Virus record (IMG/VR): IMGVR_UViG_3300046004_001609 | Coordinates: 1-62,391 of that record | Strand: one strand, 5' to 3' | DNA length: 62,391 nucleotides | Source of the DNA: a virus | Shown here: one piece after another, positions 812-14,062 of the stretch | Layout of the letters: each line of letters begins with the position of its first letter | Numbering within the stretch: position 1 is the first letter of the stretch | Notes under the pieces: generated by a model | The model's input: the letters and a program-made list of their open reading frames with translations, nothing else | Database searches by the model: none | Told to the model about the DNA's origin: nothing | Made by a program: the position numbers and the translations under genes

Positions 812-896
812 AGTCAGGTGGCGGAATGGAGAGACGCAGCCCTATCAGGGGTAGAGGCGAAAGAAACTCATACAGGTTCGAATCCTGTCCTGGCTA
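812..896 (+). tRNA. tRNA-like gene 1 (Leu-like, atypical anticodon arm)
   Basis: The length of 85 is normal for a class II tRNA. Acceptor AGTCAGG (812-818) pairs fully with CCTGGCT (889-895). The D arm GCG...CGC (821-837) has the wording GGTGGCGGAATGG typical of tRNA-Leu. T stem ACAGG/CCTGT encloses TTCGAAT (872-888). The centre is odd. The loop-like string ATCAGGG would give anticodon CAG (Leu) with T33 and G37, but the flanking 5-mers hardly pair. Instead CCCT-ATCA-GGGG forms a 4-base-loop hairpin. It could be a degenerate tRNA-Leu, a tRNA with an unusual insertion, or a tRNA-derived RNA. Confidence 0.55.
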
Positions 897-1051
897 CAGA
901 CAGCCCTCTACCTAGCGCTAGGTATGGATCGTAAAACACAGAAGGCCTCTTAACAATGCCCAAATATCTGTTCTCATCGTATAGGAGATAGGACGTTAGT
1001 TAACCTTTGCAAACTGTCCAACGTCGTTTAAACTACTTTAAAAGGTAATTT
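897..1051. other. Spacer between tRNA-like genes
   Basis: No gene is seen. The spacer contains CCTAGCGCTAGG (perfect palindrome near 910-921). It also contains a GGAC(991)...GTCC(1016) pairing around GTTAGTTAACC, which echoes the structured stretch ahead of the first tRNA-like gene. Confidence 0.3.
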
Positions 1052-1150
1052 AGTCAGGTGGCGGAGAGGAAACGCTAACTATGAATAGTCTGAGGAGTGG
1101 AGCATAGTCCTATACTCCAATGACCACAGGTTCGAATCCTGTCCTGACTA
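1052..1150 (+). tRNA. tRNA-like gene 2 (Leu-like, enlarged central region)
   Basis: Acceptor AGTCAGG (1052-1058) is a perfect complement of CCTGACT (1143-1149). The D arm GCG/CGC (1061-1075) and T arm ACAGG-TTCGAAT-CCTGT (1126-1142) are intact. Between D and T arms there are about 50 bases, roughly 14 more than in copy 1. The best helix there is ACTATG (1078-1083) with CATAGT (1103-1108), closing a 19-base loop that contains TAG (a Leu anticodon). GGAGT/ACTCC (1094-1098/1114-1118) is an alternative long-arm helix. A standard 7-base anticodon loop cannot be drawn. Confidence 0.45.
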
Positions 1151-1165
1151 CAAACAAGTAAAACA

Positions 1166-1612
1166 ATGAAACAATTTTTAAAACAACTATTTAATAAAAA
1201 GCAAAAATCAAAAACAATGGTAGGAAAAAAAGTAAAATTAGTAAGTGCTCCATCAGGCAAGCTGAGTTCAGGCAATAGTTTTATTGGTAAAGGTGGCGAG
1301 TTTACTGTAATGTCTCCGTACAATGAACCAAATTCATGGAAGATTGGCCAATCTGGCATTCTAGCTGGATGGGTATATGAATGGGAAATGGAGGGTTTTA
1401 AGTTAGGAATTAAAGAACTTGAAAAAGAACTTTCAGAGACACAAACAAAACTTAACAACATCCAATTCAAAATTGATTGGATGACGGAAACCGGTTCGGA
1501 TGAATTTTCAGAAGATGAATTTAAAGTTTATCAAACTCTTAAATTACTAGAAGATGAGAAACTTTCACGACTTGAAAAAAGTAAATTGATTGCTGAATTG
1601 ATTAAGAAATAA
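1166..1612 (+). CDS. Hypothetical protein, 148 aa, C-terminal coiled coil
   Basis: Not recognised. The gene sits between two tRNA-like genes and its ATG follows the upstream one by 15 bases. The first 20 residues are Lys-rich. Residues about 20-75 read like a small beta domain (VKLVSAPSGKLSSG..., GGEFTVMS, GWVYEWEMEG). Residues 80-148 are strongly helical and charged, compatible with a coiled coil. Codon use matches the neighbours. Sense-strand coding is much more plausible than the antisense open frame over the same DNA. Confidence 0.6.
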   Translation: MKQFLKQLFNKKQKSKTMVGKKVKLVSAPSGKLSSGNSFIGKGGEFTVMSPYNEPNSWKIGQSGILAGWVYEWEMEGFKLGIKELEKELSETQTKLNNIQFKIDWMTETGSDEFSEDEFKVYQTLKLLEDEKLSRLEKSKLIAELIKK

Positions 1613-1619
1613 AAATACT

Positions 1620-1723
1620 AGTCAGGTGGCGGAATTGGTTAGACGCACTCCCCGAGTGAGAGAGCACCTCTAGTAATCACTCAAATAAACAAGGTGTTAC
1701 AGGTTCAAATCCTGTCCTGACTA
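1620..1723 (+). tRNA. tRNA-like gene 3 (Leu-like, 104 nt)
   Basis: Acceptor AGTCAGG (1620-1626) is perfectly complementary to CCTGACT (1716-1722). The D arm GCGGAATTGGTTAGACGC (1629-1646) is textbook tRNA-Leu. The T arm ACAGG-TTCAAAT-CCTGT is intact (1699-1715). The centre is about 52 bases. CACTC-CCC-GAGTG, GAGTGA/TCACTC (1654-1659/1677-1682) and CACCT/AGGTG (1666-1670/1692-1696) compete with one another. No normal anticodon stem-loop is clear, although GAG (Leu) is present at 1654-1656. The outer arms match the other two copies almost base for base. Confidence 0.45.
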
Positions 1724-3296: not shown

Positions 3297-3355
3297 ACGT
3301 GCCCCGTTACATATTTATTAGTATACTAATTAAAAACAAATAAAAACAAAAATTT

Positions 3356-3532
3356 ATGAAAAATTTCATCATCACCGCAGTTACAGCTTTAATTCTAACT
3401 AGCTGCGTAACAGCAACAGAAGAAGTAGCAGCAGTACCTACAGTTGATAGCACTATCGTTATGGTAGATACTACAGCAGTTGATTCAATTTCAGTATCTA
3501 CACCAAGTGTAGCTACAACTACTGTAAAGTAA
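3356..3532 (+). CDS. Small lipoprotein, 58 aa
   Basis: The start MKNFIITAVTALILTSC has a short basic n-region, a hydrophobic core and an LTSC lipobox with Cys at residue 17. The mature part is about 40 residues, rich in Thr, Val, Ser and Asp with no Lys until the end, and is likely unstructured. A strong hairpin follows the stop. Small phage lipoproteins placed with early genes sometimes block superinfection (T5 Llp-like function); that role is only inference here. Confidence 0.75.
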   Translation: MKNFIITAVTALILTSCVTATEEVAAVPTVDSTIVMVDTTAVDSISVSTPSVATTTVK

Positions 3533-10741: not shown

Positions 10742-12591
10742 TGGCTGTAAATAAAAATATAAAATACATAAATAAAGATTTTAATGAGTTTAGGACTAAT
10801 TTAATTGACTACTCTAAAACTTATTTTCCTACAACATATAATGATTTTAGCCCAGCATCACCAGGAATGATGTTTATGGAAATGGCAGCGTATGTAGGTG
10901 ACGTTTTATCATTTTATTTAGATAATCAAGTACAAGAAAACTATTTACAATTTGCTCGTCAATCAAATAACTTATTTGAATTAGCATATATGTTTGGTTA
11001 TAAACCAAATGTAACAGGAATAGCAGTTACTAACATAGATTTTTACCAAAAAGTACCATCTAAAATGTCTGGTTCAACATATATTCCTGATTTTGATTAT
11101 ACATTACTTATTAACGGAAATGCTACTGTAACTTCAACAAGTGGGGTTTCATTCCTAATTGCTGACCCAGTAGATTTTTCAGTATCAAGTTCAGGAGATC
11201 CTACCGAAATTTCTGTATATGAAGTTTCAGGAGGAAACCCAACATATTATCTATTAAAGAAAACACGTAAATCTATATCATCTACAATTAATACAAAAAC
11301 ATTTTCATTTAACTCACCTGTTAAATTTTCAACAGTTGAAATAAATGCTACAAATATAGTAGGTATTTTAGATTGTATTGATAATGAAGGAAATACATGG
11401 TATGAAGTAGATTATTTAGGACAAGAAATGGTATTTGATTCAATTAAAAATACAAACACTAACGATCCAAATTTATCTCAATATAATGGGGATACCCCAT
11501 ATTTATTAAAGTTGAAGAAAATACAACGTAGATTTGCTTCTCGCTTTAAAAACTCAAATACATTACAAATTCAATTTGGGTCAGGTACTACATCAGATTC
11601 TGATGAAATAATTATTCCAAACCCAGATAATATAGGTATTGGTCTACCATTTGAACAAACAAAATTAACAACAGCATATGCTCCATCAAATTTTTTATTT
11701 ACAGATACTTATGGGATTGCCCCTTCAAATACTACTTTAACATTTAGATATTTAACAGGGGGAGGAGTATCAGCAAATGTAAATGCTAATAGTTTAACTA
11801 AATTAAATGGTACAACTACTTTTTTAAATGCAAATTTAAATACTACAACAGCAAATAACATATTTGCTTCATTAGCTGTTACTAACCCACAAGCAGCAAG
11901 TGGAGGAGGAGATGGAGATACAATTGAAGAAATTAGACAAAATTCATCTGCTAATTTTGCTAGTCAATTACGTAATGTAACTCAAGATGACTATTTAGTA
12001 AGAGCATTAAGTATGCCTGCTAAGTATGGTAATATAGCTAAAGCATATATTGAACCAACTAAAGCACAAAGTATACAAGCTGGCGAAGCAGCTGGTATAT
12101 TAGATTTATATATTTTAACAAATGATGTTAATGGTAAATTAAATACAGCGTCCTCAGGTTTAAAACAAAATCTGATTACTTATCTTTCTTTATATAGAAT
12201 GATAAATGATGCTATTAATATTAAAGACGGCTTTATAATTAATATAGGAGTTAATTTTGATATTATTATTCTTCCAAATTACAATAGTAATGAAGTTTTA
12301 ACAAAATGTATTACAGCATTGCAAGGATATTTTGCAATTAATAATTGGCAAATAAACCAACCAATTGTACTAAGAGAACTTTATATTCTTTTAGATAAAA
12401 TAGAAGGAGTACAAACAGTAAAAACGATAAATATTTCAAATTTAACTGGAACAAATTTAGGATACTCAGCGTTTGCATATAATATTTCTGGTGCAACTAA
12501 AAATAACGTAGTTTACCCATCGATAGATCCTATGATTTTCGAAGTGAAATATCCTTCTACAGACATTCAAGGTAGAGTAGTATCATTATAA
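10741..12591 (+). CDS. gp6: Baseplate wedge protein, gp6-like (baseplate J family), 616 aa
   Basis: The N-terminal 80 residues (KDFNEFRTNLIDYSKTYFPT, SPGMMFMEMAAYVGDVLSFY, QESNNLFELAYMFGYKP-type region) are characteristic of T4 gp6 and related J-family wedge proteins. The length is close to T4 gp6 (660 aa). The C-terminal part contains the family's REIALLDKIEGVQTV-like stretch (LRELYILLDKIEGVQTVKTI). gp6 dimers form the inner ring of the baseplate. A Gly-rich turn ASGGGDGDTIEEIRQNSSAN near residue 383 is also typical of J proteins. Confidence 0.9.
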   Translation: MAVNKNIKYINKDFNEFRTNLIDYSKTYFPTTYNDFSPASPGMMFMEMAAYVGDVLSFYLDNQVQENYLQFARQSNNLFELAYMFGYKPNVTGIAVTNIDFYQKVPSKMSGSTYIPDFDYTLLINGNATVTSTSGVSFLIADPVDFSVSSSGDPTEISVYEVSGGNPTYYLLKKTRKSISSTINTKTFSFNSPVKFSTVEINATNIVGILDCIDNEGNTWYEVDYLGQEMVFDSIKNTNTNDPNLSQYNGDTPYLLKLKKIQRRFASRFKNSNTLQIQFGSGTTSDSDEIIIPNPDNIGIGLPFEQTKLTTAYAPSNFLFTDTYGIAPSNTTLTFRYLTGGGVSANVNANSLTKLNGTTTFLNANLNTTTANNIFASLAVTNPQAASGGGDGDTIEEIRQNSSANFASQLRNVTQDDYLVRALSMPAKYGNIAKAYIEPTKAQSIQAGEAAGILDLYILTNDVNGKLNTASSGLKQNLITYLSLYRMINDAINIKDGFIINIGVNFDIIILPNYNSNEVLTKCITALQGYFAINNWQINQPIVLRELYILLDKIEGVQTVKTINISNLTGTNLGYSAFAYNISGATKNNVVYPSIDPMIFEVKYPSTDIQGRVVSL

Positions 12592-12605: not shown

Positions 12606-13712
12606 ATGGCCACATATAAAATCTTCCCAACCAAAGATACAACTTTATATTCTATATATCCAGAAATGAATACAGGATTAGATGAAATATTAGAAGCATC
12701 TTTAGAAGTAGGAAATTTAGGAACACCTTCCCCTCAAGCAAGTCGTTTTCTAATTCAATTTGACTCAAATGAAATAACAGATGTTATTAATAATAAAATA
12801 TCAGGTTCACAATGGGAATCTAATTTAAAATGCTTAGTAGCTAATGTTACTGCTTTAAATACAGATACAACTATAAATGCATTTGCTGTTTCTCAATCTT
12901 GGGATATGGGCACAGGTAGATTTGCAAATGTCCCTGAAACACAAAACGGCGCTAGTTGGATATGGAAAAATTATCAAGGAGGAACCAAATGGACTACTAG
13001 TTCATTCTCAGCAGGATCAACAGGATCTTATTCTTCCTCAGTTTCACCTGGAGGAGGAACTTGGTATACAGCTTTATCTTCATCTACTACATTCGGATAT
13101 TACACAGATAAAGATATTATTCTTAATACTACACCAATTGTAACTCAATGGTATACTGGTTCTATTCCTAATGATGGATTTATTGTAAAGCAAAAAGATG
13201 AATTTATGGATAATGAAAATACTCAACCAAAAATGAAGTATTTTTCAATTGACACCCATACCATTTATCCTCCAAGTTTAGAATTTAAATGGGTAGATGC
13301 TACATTTAATACTGGATCTTCTACATTACCAACAATTCGTAAAACACCACTTGTAGTAACTATAGGTGATAACCCAGGATATTTCTACTCAGGAAGTATA
13401 AATCAATTTAGAGTATATTCAAGACCGGAATACCCAGATAGAATATTCGCTACAGCTTCATATTATACTCAAAACTTTTATTTACCAACATCTTCTTATT
13501 ATGCTATAAAAGATTTAGATACTAATGAATATGTAGTAGAATTTGATAAAACATATACCCAATTAAGTATGGATACTACAAGTAGCTTATTTACATTATA
13601 TATGGCTGGATTACAACCAGAAAGATATTATAAAATATTAATCCAAACCACAGTAGATGGAAGTACATTAGTATTAGATAATGATTATTACTTTAAAATA
13701 ATTAATGGATAA
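12606..13712 (+). CDS. Virion protein with DNRLRE-like N-terminus, 368 aa
   Basis: The start reads MATYKIFPTKDTTLYSIYPE then MNTG, followed by EASLEVGNLG and SRFLIQFD. This resembles the beta-sandwich family in which TxDTT, NxG and RxLLxFD elements recur (DNRLRE-type, often in extracellular proteins). The middle is Ser/Gly/Trp-rich and the C-terminal 100 residues look like a second beta domain (YFYSGSINQFRVYSRPEYPD). Position after gp6 suggests a wedge or peripheral baseplate protein, perhaps replacing gp7/gp8. Confidence 0.55.
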   Translation: MATYKIFPTKDTTLYSIYPEMNTGLDEILEASLEVGNLGTPSPQASRFLIQFDSNEITDVINNKISGSQWESNLKCLVANVTALNTDTTINAFAVSQSWDMGTGRFANVPETQNGASWIWKNYQGGTKWTTSSFSAGSTGSYSSSVSPGGGTWYTALSSSTTFGYYTDKDIILNTTPIVTQWYTGSIPNDGFIVKQKDEFMDNENTQPKMKYFSIDTHTIYPPSLEFKWVDATFNTGSSTLPTIRKTPLVVTIGDNPGYFYSGSINQFRVYSRPEYPDRIFATASYYTQNFYLPTSSYYAIKDLDTNEYVVEFDKTYTQLSMDTTSSLFTLYMAGLQPERYYKILIQTTVDGSTLVLDNDYYFKIING

Positions 13713-14062
13713 TGGAAACTGTAAATTTAAATAAAAGAACTTATGCTAAAAGTCAATATCAAAAAGTTATAGATACTAACTTTAATCAATTAGCACAATC
13801 TCCATCTATTACTAACCCAAATATAATAACCCCTACTATATCAGTTGAAGAATTTTTTTCTAAATATGTTCAAATATTTTTTACAATACCTAAACTTGGA
13901 GCTACAAATTCTCATGAGTATCTTGTAAAAACAAGTTTAGAATATATTGGAACAAATCCTGCAAGTAATGAAATAAATGCATTAATTGATGAAATTAATA
14001 TATTACAACAACAAAATTTAGATCTTAATCAACAAATAATAGACCTACAACTTCCTAAATAA
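13712..14062 (+). CDS. Small baseplate-cluster protein, 116 aa
   Basis: Not recognised. It is coupled at both ends by TAATG overlaps. The N-terminal half (RTYAKSQYQKVIDTNFNQLA, PTISVEEFFSKYVQIFFTIP) precedes a C-terminal coiled coil with NEINALIDEINILQQQNLDL. The C-terminal coil might trimerise. Confidence 0.6.
   Translation: METVNLNKRTYAKSQYQKVIDTNFNQLAQSPSITNPNIITPTISVEEFFSKYVQIFFTIPKLGATNSHEYLVKTSLEYIGTNPASNEINALIDEINILQQQNLDLNQQIIDLQLPK

Follow-up and report, generated by a model that had tools for sequence, protein, structure and literature searches.

Several kinds of viral RNA use tRNA maturation or tRNA shape for other ends, including the 3′ tRNA-like structures of plant viruses and the tRNA-like transcripts of gammaherpesviruses. 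Regarding the charging of tRNA-Leu, A73, the A15-U48 pair, G18G19, A20a and contacts between the D and T loops matter and the anticodon does not, and E. coli tRNA-Leu without the anticodon and variable arms is still leucylated (reviewed in PMC9976931). RNA antitoxin mimicry is an established phage strategy, as exemplified by the phage pseudo-ToxI (PMC3475682), and the abiF RNA neutralises its own toxin in trans (PMC12373285). The DNA analysed here, referred to as the window, comprises the 62,391 bases of an uncultivated virus record (IMG/VR record IMGVR_UViG_3300046004_001609). An earlier note on this DNA had pointed out three tRNA-Leu-like copies with conserved outer arms, A (812-896, +), B (1052-1150, +) and C (1620-1723, +), and these were found exactly as described. 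Comparison with other virus records gives good support to the conclusion that the three copies are members of a large, apparently undescribed phage RNA family, named TLE here. As read from its sequence, a TLE is a leucine tRNA body in which the codon-reading arm is replaced by one of at least 100 different inserts, referred to below as centres.

Three Elements in the Window

Copies A, B and C share a 7-bp acceptor stem, AGTCAGG/CCTGACT (CCTGGCT in copy A, giving one G-U pair), a Leu-type D arm that starts with TGGCGGA, and the T arm ACAGG-TTCRAAT-CCTGT, which is followed by A73 and C74. In copy A, the acceptor stem lies at 812-818/889-895, the D arm at 819-837, the centre at 838-870 and the T arm at 872-888, with A73 at 896 and C74 at 897. 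Its centre contains a hairpin (839-843/848-852) that replaces the anticodon arm, and a variable-arm stem (854-856/867-869, GAG/CTC). The centre family of copy A occurs in 13 stretches in IMG/VR; its hairpin reads ACTC/GAGT in some relatives and ACCCC/GGGGT in others, the loops have 4-7 nt, and U33 is not conserved. The centre of copy B corresponds to an H-type pseudoknot, in which stem S1 pairs 1078-1083 (ACTATG) with 1103-1108 (CATAGT) and stem S2 pairs 1094-1098 (GGAGT) with 1114-1118 (ACTCC). S1 is ACTTGG/CCAAGT in the relatives L005, L310 and L313, equivalent to two compensatory double changes in a register set by eye, while L311 has one S1 mismatch and S2 is retained in the relatives with one G-U pair. 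Judged by these relatives, the copy B centre forms a covarying pseudoknot. The centre of copy C is also able to form an H-type pseudoknot (S1, 1654-1659 GAGTGA with 1677-1682 TCACTC; S2, 1664-1669 GCACCT with 1692-1697 AGGTGT). This centre is common only to L074, L309 and L231, and because L231 differs solely outside the stems, covariation provides no test of the copy C pseudoknot, which is plausible from the predicted pairing.

The Rfam tRNA model scores copies A and C above threshold (35.2 and 40.6 bits) but with large unexplained inserts, and copy B has no match to this model in the window scan. ARAGORN reports copy A as a spurious tRNA-Pro(AGG) and misses copies B and C in the window. A 5-bp anticodon stem with a 7-nt loop carrying U33 and a Leu anticodon is absent from copies A, B and C, and the Rfam scan gave no tmRNA match at the three positions. 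In contrast to these general tools, a family covariance model (R1), trained on 37 sequences that include the three copies, finds exactly A, B and C in the window at 70-81 bits, the next best match scoring 15.7. The description of the centres as scrambled and not those of an ordinary tRNA-Leu is borne out by the behaviour of both programs and by the chance-level frequency of anticodon arms in the family (see below); the covariance search, proposed earlier as the test that could fold the copies as ordinary tRNA-Leu, did not do so for A, B or C.

Size and Distribution of the TLE Family

TLEs were sampled by sequence pattern, and related contigs among them are not independent. A scan of IMG/VR for the two outer halves separated by 40-70 unconstrained bases matched at least 120 stretches of virus DNA, and the first 173 elements contain 111 unrelated centre clusters. 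When the 3′ half alone was used, leaving the 5′ half and the distance unconstrained, most of the matches listed had a 5′ partner, about 30 to 156 bases away. In total, at least 305 distinct TLEs were collected from 158 loci, with an acceptor-to-T-stem spacing of 30-156 nt and, in most cases, an overall length of 80-150 nt. Several TLEs are found per contig, mostly within tRNA arrays that also hold ordinary tRNA-Leu; many of these arrays include an intact tRNA-Leu(TAA) or tRNA-Leu(TAG), with varied acceptor stems. Among the matches listed for an R1-type family covariance model over virus records, up to 11 elements at 59 bits or more occur in one record; ordinary tRNA-Leu score 27-53 bits under the family model.

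A scan of the related loci by structure only (acceptor stem, T stem, T loop and C74, with no stem sequence specified) returned 564 tRNA-top-half structures as compared with none in reversed sequence. These consist of 298 structures with the AGTCAGG-type cap, 242 ordinary tRNAs identified by ARAGORN and 24 with other caps and no ARAGORN identification (26 with two unassigned calls). The dominance of the AGTCAGG cap is partly due to sampling, because the loci were selected by this cap; selection of this kind does not account for the excess of several capped elements in a locus. Apart from tRNA, no Rfam family matched TLEs in the window or among the best-scoring matches of the 11 related loci scanned. 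TLE is judged to be a new RNA family because its members lack what defines a tRNA and match no other Rfam family; no published description of such a family was found in a partial coverage of the literature that included few subscription journals and preprints.

Other capped structures were observed in the related loci. A second tRNA-capped family (L005:841, L059:504, L093:4255 and L310:2724), with a CCATTCT or CCACTCT cap and a GTTGG or GCTGG T stem, has a long paired extension at the site of the anticodon arm. Capped elements in L167, L145, L195, L033 and L219 have inserts of about 130 bases, most of which share GGGTTGACCACAAAGCCGGCT; some of these members, but not all, have an insert that is an open frame.

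Loss of the Decoding Arm

An anticodon arm was defined as at least four of five pairs, a 7-base loop and a correctly placed U33, and was sought in 196 non-redundant centres. Such an arm is present in 16 of the 196, as compared with 12.2 ± 2.3 in shuffled centres, whereas all of the ordinary tRNA-Leu from the same loci possess it (17/17). As for the Leu anticodon triplets that the earlier note had seen in each centre, chance alone predicts two to five per centre. Since 6 of 64 triplets are Leu anticodons and anticodon arms with U33 stand at chance level in the family, the triplets are uninformative and carry no evidential weight.

An ordinary decoding tRNA-Leu was rejected as an identity for TLEs, since the body agrees with one and the anticodon arm does not (16/196 versus 12.2 expected). 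The centre start shows no enrichment of T33 or purine-37, as an intron after the anticodon would leave, and some TLEs are shorter than a normal tRNA-Leu; an intron-containing or split tRNA was rejected on both grounds. The former suggestion of tRNAs with insertions or introns likewise did not hold, as neither side of the centre offers U33 or an anticodon stem. A broader version of this idea, that TLEs are decaying or intron-containing tRNA-Leu genes that decode now or did so until recently, finds some encouragement in the tRNA-Leu-like outer parts and in a Leu anticodon-like triplet before GG in the hairpin loop of copy A and two relatives. It is nevertheless very improbable, considering that the body is near-perfect over hundreds of elements with a decoding arm at chance level, that elements below the length of tRNA-Leu exist without U33 or purine-37 enrichment, and that intact tRNA-Leu(TAA) or (TAG) accompany TLEs in many of the same arrays. 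The anatomy of TLEs argues against decoding, of which they are presumably incapable. Resistance to host anticodon nucleases, a further suggestion of the earlier note, is an unlikely purpose because an RNA without an anticodon arm cannot replace a cleaved tRNA. One tRNA-Leu-like sequence (L014:6420-6518, +) has a perfect 5-bp anticodon stem and the loop TGCAGAG, in which the Leu anticodon is CAG and position 33 is a G.

Conserved Body and Predicted Leucylation

The cap, comprising the acceptor stem AGTCAGG/CCTGACT, the T arm and A73-C74, is nearly constant across TLEs, and the D arm is usually kept. In 337 capped elements, A14 is found in 311, A15 in 305, G18G19 in 299, U48 in 287 and A73 in 313, and 226 of the 337 carry all five; C74 comes next in nearly all TLEs and likewise in the ordinary tRNAs from the loci concerned. 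Taken together with the known requirements for leucine charging (PMC9976931), these determinants imply that TLEs keep what leucyl-tRNA synthetase (LeuRS) needs and have lost what it does not need. As bacterial LeuRS does not need the anticodon arm, TLEs are predicted to be leucylated.

The cap is not tied to one body. In L034 and L068, one body occurs with either the AGTCAGG/CCTGACT acceptor stem or a fully compensated GACCGGG/CCCGGTC stem, and L263 (4958-5031, +) and L117 have the same tRNA-Ile(TAT) body with an AGTCAGG cap in the former and GCTCTCG in the latter. To the extent that these alignments tell, body and acceptor stem are shown to be exchangeable. Two further features were noted. 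A conserved hairpin, TGAC[AG][CG]CTCGGAAAGACGAG[GC]AACA, lies directly 5′ of capped elements of several cap types (L005, L071, L086, L117, L241, L258, L259, L270, L300 and L307) and shows a C-G to G-C exchange in its stem, and elements in L283, L104, L145 and L261 have an additional hairpin inserted in the D loop.

The Centre as a Conserved and Exchangeable Module

There are 53 locus pairs in which identity is 80-100% over the centre region and no higher than between random pairs in either 60-base flank. For one centre family, a search with nothing but the centre yielded 46 copies in 45 stretches; essentially all of them occur with a tRNA-type T arm, and where upstream DNA is available nearly all have the complete body, L040 being a member without the 5′ half. 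The 46 copies have 31 distinct downstream flanks with a mean identity of 58.6%, equal to the random level. Insofar as such alignments can tell, TLE centres are shown to be numerous and unrelated to one another; a genome has several, and each centre is conserved as a whole although the DNA around it is unrelated. Across 18 distinct members of this family, 98.7% of the cells in 26 pairs (body, variable arm, inner hairpin and S1) are paired, and compensatory double changes occur in 10 of the 26 pairs, namely 4/7 in the acceptor stem, 4/5 in the T stem and 2/4 in the variable-arm stem; the D stem, inner hairpin and S1 of these 18 members contain none. As controls, 0 of 500 shuffles reached the observed covariation, and sliding the partner by 1-3 columns reduced pairing to 27-47%. 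By this covariation, the acceptor and T-arm helices are shown to be under base-pair selection. Chance or decay as the origin of TLEs was rejected in view of the empty scan of reversed sequence, the conservation of centres across unrelated flanks and the compensatory changes.

These data bear on two explanations in which the centre has no role of its own. According to the first, the centre is filler and the tRNA-Leu body alone acts as a competitor or sink for LeuRS, leucine, EF-Tu or a nuclease directed at tRNA-Leu. This explanation would account for the retained Leu determinants, the lost anticodon arm and the extreme diversity of centre sequences; however, filler would not stay 80-100% conserved between contigs of unrelated flanks with helices kept by compensation, and it would give no need for several different centres per genome, which makes it unlikely. 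The second explanation regards TLEs as recombination cassettes, in which the cap is a hot spot exchanging unrelated DNA and the RNAs themselves are without function. A near-constant cap, its exchange between bodies including tRNA-Ile, and the presence of the module in unrelated flanks are consistent with this view, but the compensatory changes in the acceptor, T and variable-arm helices together with the kept A73-C74 and U48 indicate selection on the RNA product. As exchange and function are compatible, exchange need not mean a lack of function, and cassettes of this kind are quite unlikely.

Regarding the structure of the centres, 75 of 196 have a stem at the variable-arm position, with its end 1-4 bases upstream of the T stem, as compared with 27 ± 4.7 in shuffles, and 44 have a positional pseudoknot, in which the variable-arm stem is interleaved with a second stem, as compared with 16 ± 3.6. 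The pseudoknot count partly follows from the count of variable-arm stems; therefore, the variable-arm stem (S2) was held fixed and the remainder shuffled. Under this treatment, which like the whole pseudoknot test considered perfect stems only, S1 pairing was still enriched (Kolmogorov-Smirnov p 5e-5; nested-hairpin control, p 0.003). The pseudoknot is a feature of a subset of centres. Single-sequence folding of the centres gave a weak signal (mean z -0.64, standard error 0.10), and the 5′ part of many centres is predicted to be unpaired. Such unpaired parts on a common stable scaffold, combined with the diversity of the centres, might suggest tRNA-bodied antisense RNAs that base-pair with host mRNAs. 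This possibility is improbable, as the families examined conserve helices and not loops and the centres show no excess complementarity to the phage's own DNA, a comparison that covered the own genome and not host mRNAs. Antisense action on the phage itself was rejected for lack of excess complementarity to its genome.

Phage Type and Neighbouring Features

The terminase, portal and major capsid proteins of the window are T4-like. Its capsid protein is closest to that of Flavobacterium phage immuto (58% identity), followed by Microcystis phage Mel-JY01 (49%) and Rhodothermus phage RM378 (36%). Of the larger TLE records, 33 including the window were tested for a T4-like capsid gene and 20 have one; the others may be fragments or other phages. 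No full-length TLE match was found in cultured phages, immuto and Mel-JY01 scoring only like ordinary tRNA-Leu. In bacterial genome collections, the full TLE pattern matched three times, all on short contigs of metagenome-assembled genomes (MAGs). Derivation as a copy of a Bacteroidota host tRNA was rejected, since the 3′ cap (up to two mismatches) is absent from 394 of 395 genomes, and the exception (G051) carries TLEs on a short MAG contig.

Near the left end of the window, copies A, B and C are flanked by an ordinary tRNA-Glu(TTC) (515-587, +) and an ordinary tRNA-Gln(TTG) (2143-2215, +), both identified by ARAGORN and the Rfam tRNA model. The non-coding stretch between tRNA-Glu and copy A (588-811) contains complementary blocks (GGGGAATACTGC..GGAGGAGG / CCTCCCC) and may hold further RNAs. 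A gene for a 148-aa protein of no known family (1166-1612, +) lies between copies B and C. Downstream of copy C, a tmRNA-like sequence (1784-2141, +; 24.6 bits against a cut-off of 47, E 1.5e-7) has a convincing 3′ third ending in GGACGAGGGTTCGAATCCCTCCAGCTCCACTA and a mismatched 5′ acceptor strand, pointing to a decayed or strongly altered phage tmRNA. Another TLE-bearing contig, L099, also holds a GOLLD RNA (11836-12243, +), a freshwater-1 RNA (3348-3409, +) and a tmRNA (13561-13958, -).

Between copies A and B lies a diverged abiF-like RNA (938-972, +; RF03085, 28.0 bits, E 1.7e-4, below the Rfam gathering cut-off of 37) in which the conserved core GCCTCTTAACAATGCCCAAAT is present, and no Abi_2 gene was found in the window record. 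A similar RNA occurs in the record of L074 and, weakly, in G046; it is possibly a phage-borne antitoxin RNA. This neighbour, the pseudoknot geometry of copies B and C, the excess of pseudoknots in the family and the published precedents (PMC3475682 and PMC12373285) invite the explanation that TLEs are antitoxin mimics, whose centres imitate the H-type pseudoknots of type III toxin-antitoxin RNAs or the RNA of AbiF, thereby freeing the phage from abortive infection. The probability of this explanation is low. ToxN toxins above the cut-off were found in 0 of 395 Bacteroidota genomes, which may not be the true hosts, abiF RNA above threshold was found in 1 of 296 Bacteroidota genomes and 3 of 49 TLE records, and the Rfam searches described above matched TLEs to tRNA only. 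Given that few TLE records contain abiF RNA and that the Bacteroidota sampled have essentially no ToxN, neither AbiF nor ToxN is the general target; classical ToxIN mimicry in Bacteroidota and a general association of TLEs with abiF RNA were both rejected on these counts.

Proposed Function

In the proposed mechanism, TLEs would be transcribed together with the tRNA array and matured by host RNase P, RNase Z and CCA addition, and would fold into the tRNA elbow, probably being leucylated and taking no part in decoding. The tRNA body would provide a chassis for stabilisation and maturation. The centre would do the work, each element offering its own structured RNA ligand, most likely to a host protein. 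Anti-phage factors would be the likeliest targets, and each genome would carry a small library of decoy or inhibitor RNAs. The centre is read as a ligand for host, and likely anti-phage, proteins because a phage would benefit from a varied set of such ligands and from exchanging them. Decoy function, one of the suggestions of the earlier note, thus survives as the inferred function, with the diversity and conservation of the centres suggesting that specificity resides in the centre and not in the tRNA body alone. A probability of roughly 0.4 is assigned to the reading in which TLEs are non-decoding RNAs that mature, and are probably charged, in the manner of tRNA-Leu and whose centres each act as a structured ligand, likely for anti-phage proteins. 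The wider proposal is rather doubtful; it holds that a modular library of leucylatable tRNA-bodied RNAs that do not decode is common to many uncultivated tailed phages, that its members are exchanged between genomes unit by unit, and that their centres serve as different structured inhibitors or decoys against host (probably anti-phage) proteins.

Several points weigh against the ligand reading. TLEs are known here from sequence, and the targets of the centres are putative; the link to anti-phage proteins comes from analogy and from one nearby abiF-like RNA, which is rare in genomes of the family (3/49). About one-third of TLEs are without at least one of the five Leu determinants. Pseudoknots are significant in a minority of centres only, and S1 is without covariation in the best-sampled family. 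No conserved partner gene was found beside TLEs, the best protein family occurring in 19 of 168 loci.

If the wider proposal is true, TLEs would be an RNA counterpart of anti-defence gene islands, with tRNA as a universal carrier. Phage RNAs now annotated as (bad) tRNAs, or not at all, represent a large family of structured RNAs. Because TLEs presumably cannot act in decoding, phage tRNA counts would be partly wrong, and there may be a second reason for the presence of tRNAs in phages. The combination of a constant body with exchangeable centres would provide a ready assay, in which centres are swapped on one body. TLEs would also allow direct tests of the natural charging of a tRNA without an anticodon arm and of phage RNA decoy libraries.

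Comparison with Known Systems

The tRNA-like RNAs of plant viruses and gammaherpesviruses belong to other viruses and are likened to TLEs from general knowledge only; to our knowledge, no family of that type has a constant body with an exchangeable centre. The TLE family suggests that the shape of a tRNA serves viruses as a carrier for purposes besides protein synthesis. Phage tRNA-Leu genes (RF00005) resemble TLEs in the acceptor stem, the Leu-type D arm, the T arm, A73, C74, the position in tRNA arrays and, in many cases, a variable-arm stem, whereas TLEs have no anticodon arm, no conserved U33 or anticodon, a near-constant acceptor stem and a centre divergent in length and sequence. In phage tRNAs that evade nucleases by anticodon-loop mutations (PMC10264068), the anticodon region departs from that of the host as it does in TLEs; however, the anticodon arm is retained in these tRNAs, which have been proposed to take over decoding from cleaved host tRNAs, whereas TLEs are without a decoding arm. 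tmRNA (RF00023) shares with TLEs a tRNA top half with a structured insert, the lack of an anticodon arm and the occurrence of pseudoknots. In contrast to the Ala-type tmRNA, TLEs have a Leu-type body, usually keep the D arm and mostly measure 80-150 nt, and no tag reading frame was recognised in them, though no systematic search for one was made. The type III antitoxin RNAs (ToxI, CptI and TenpI) and pseudo-ToxI (PMC3475682) are like TLEs in being short, pseudoknotted and sequence-diverse units with phage-borne mimics, but they are tandem repeats cut by the toxin, whereas TLEs are single units within a tRNA body. The functional class of TLEs could still prove to be a variant of a known strategy, that of RNA mimicry.
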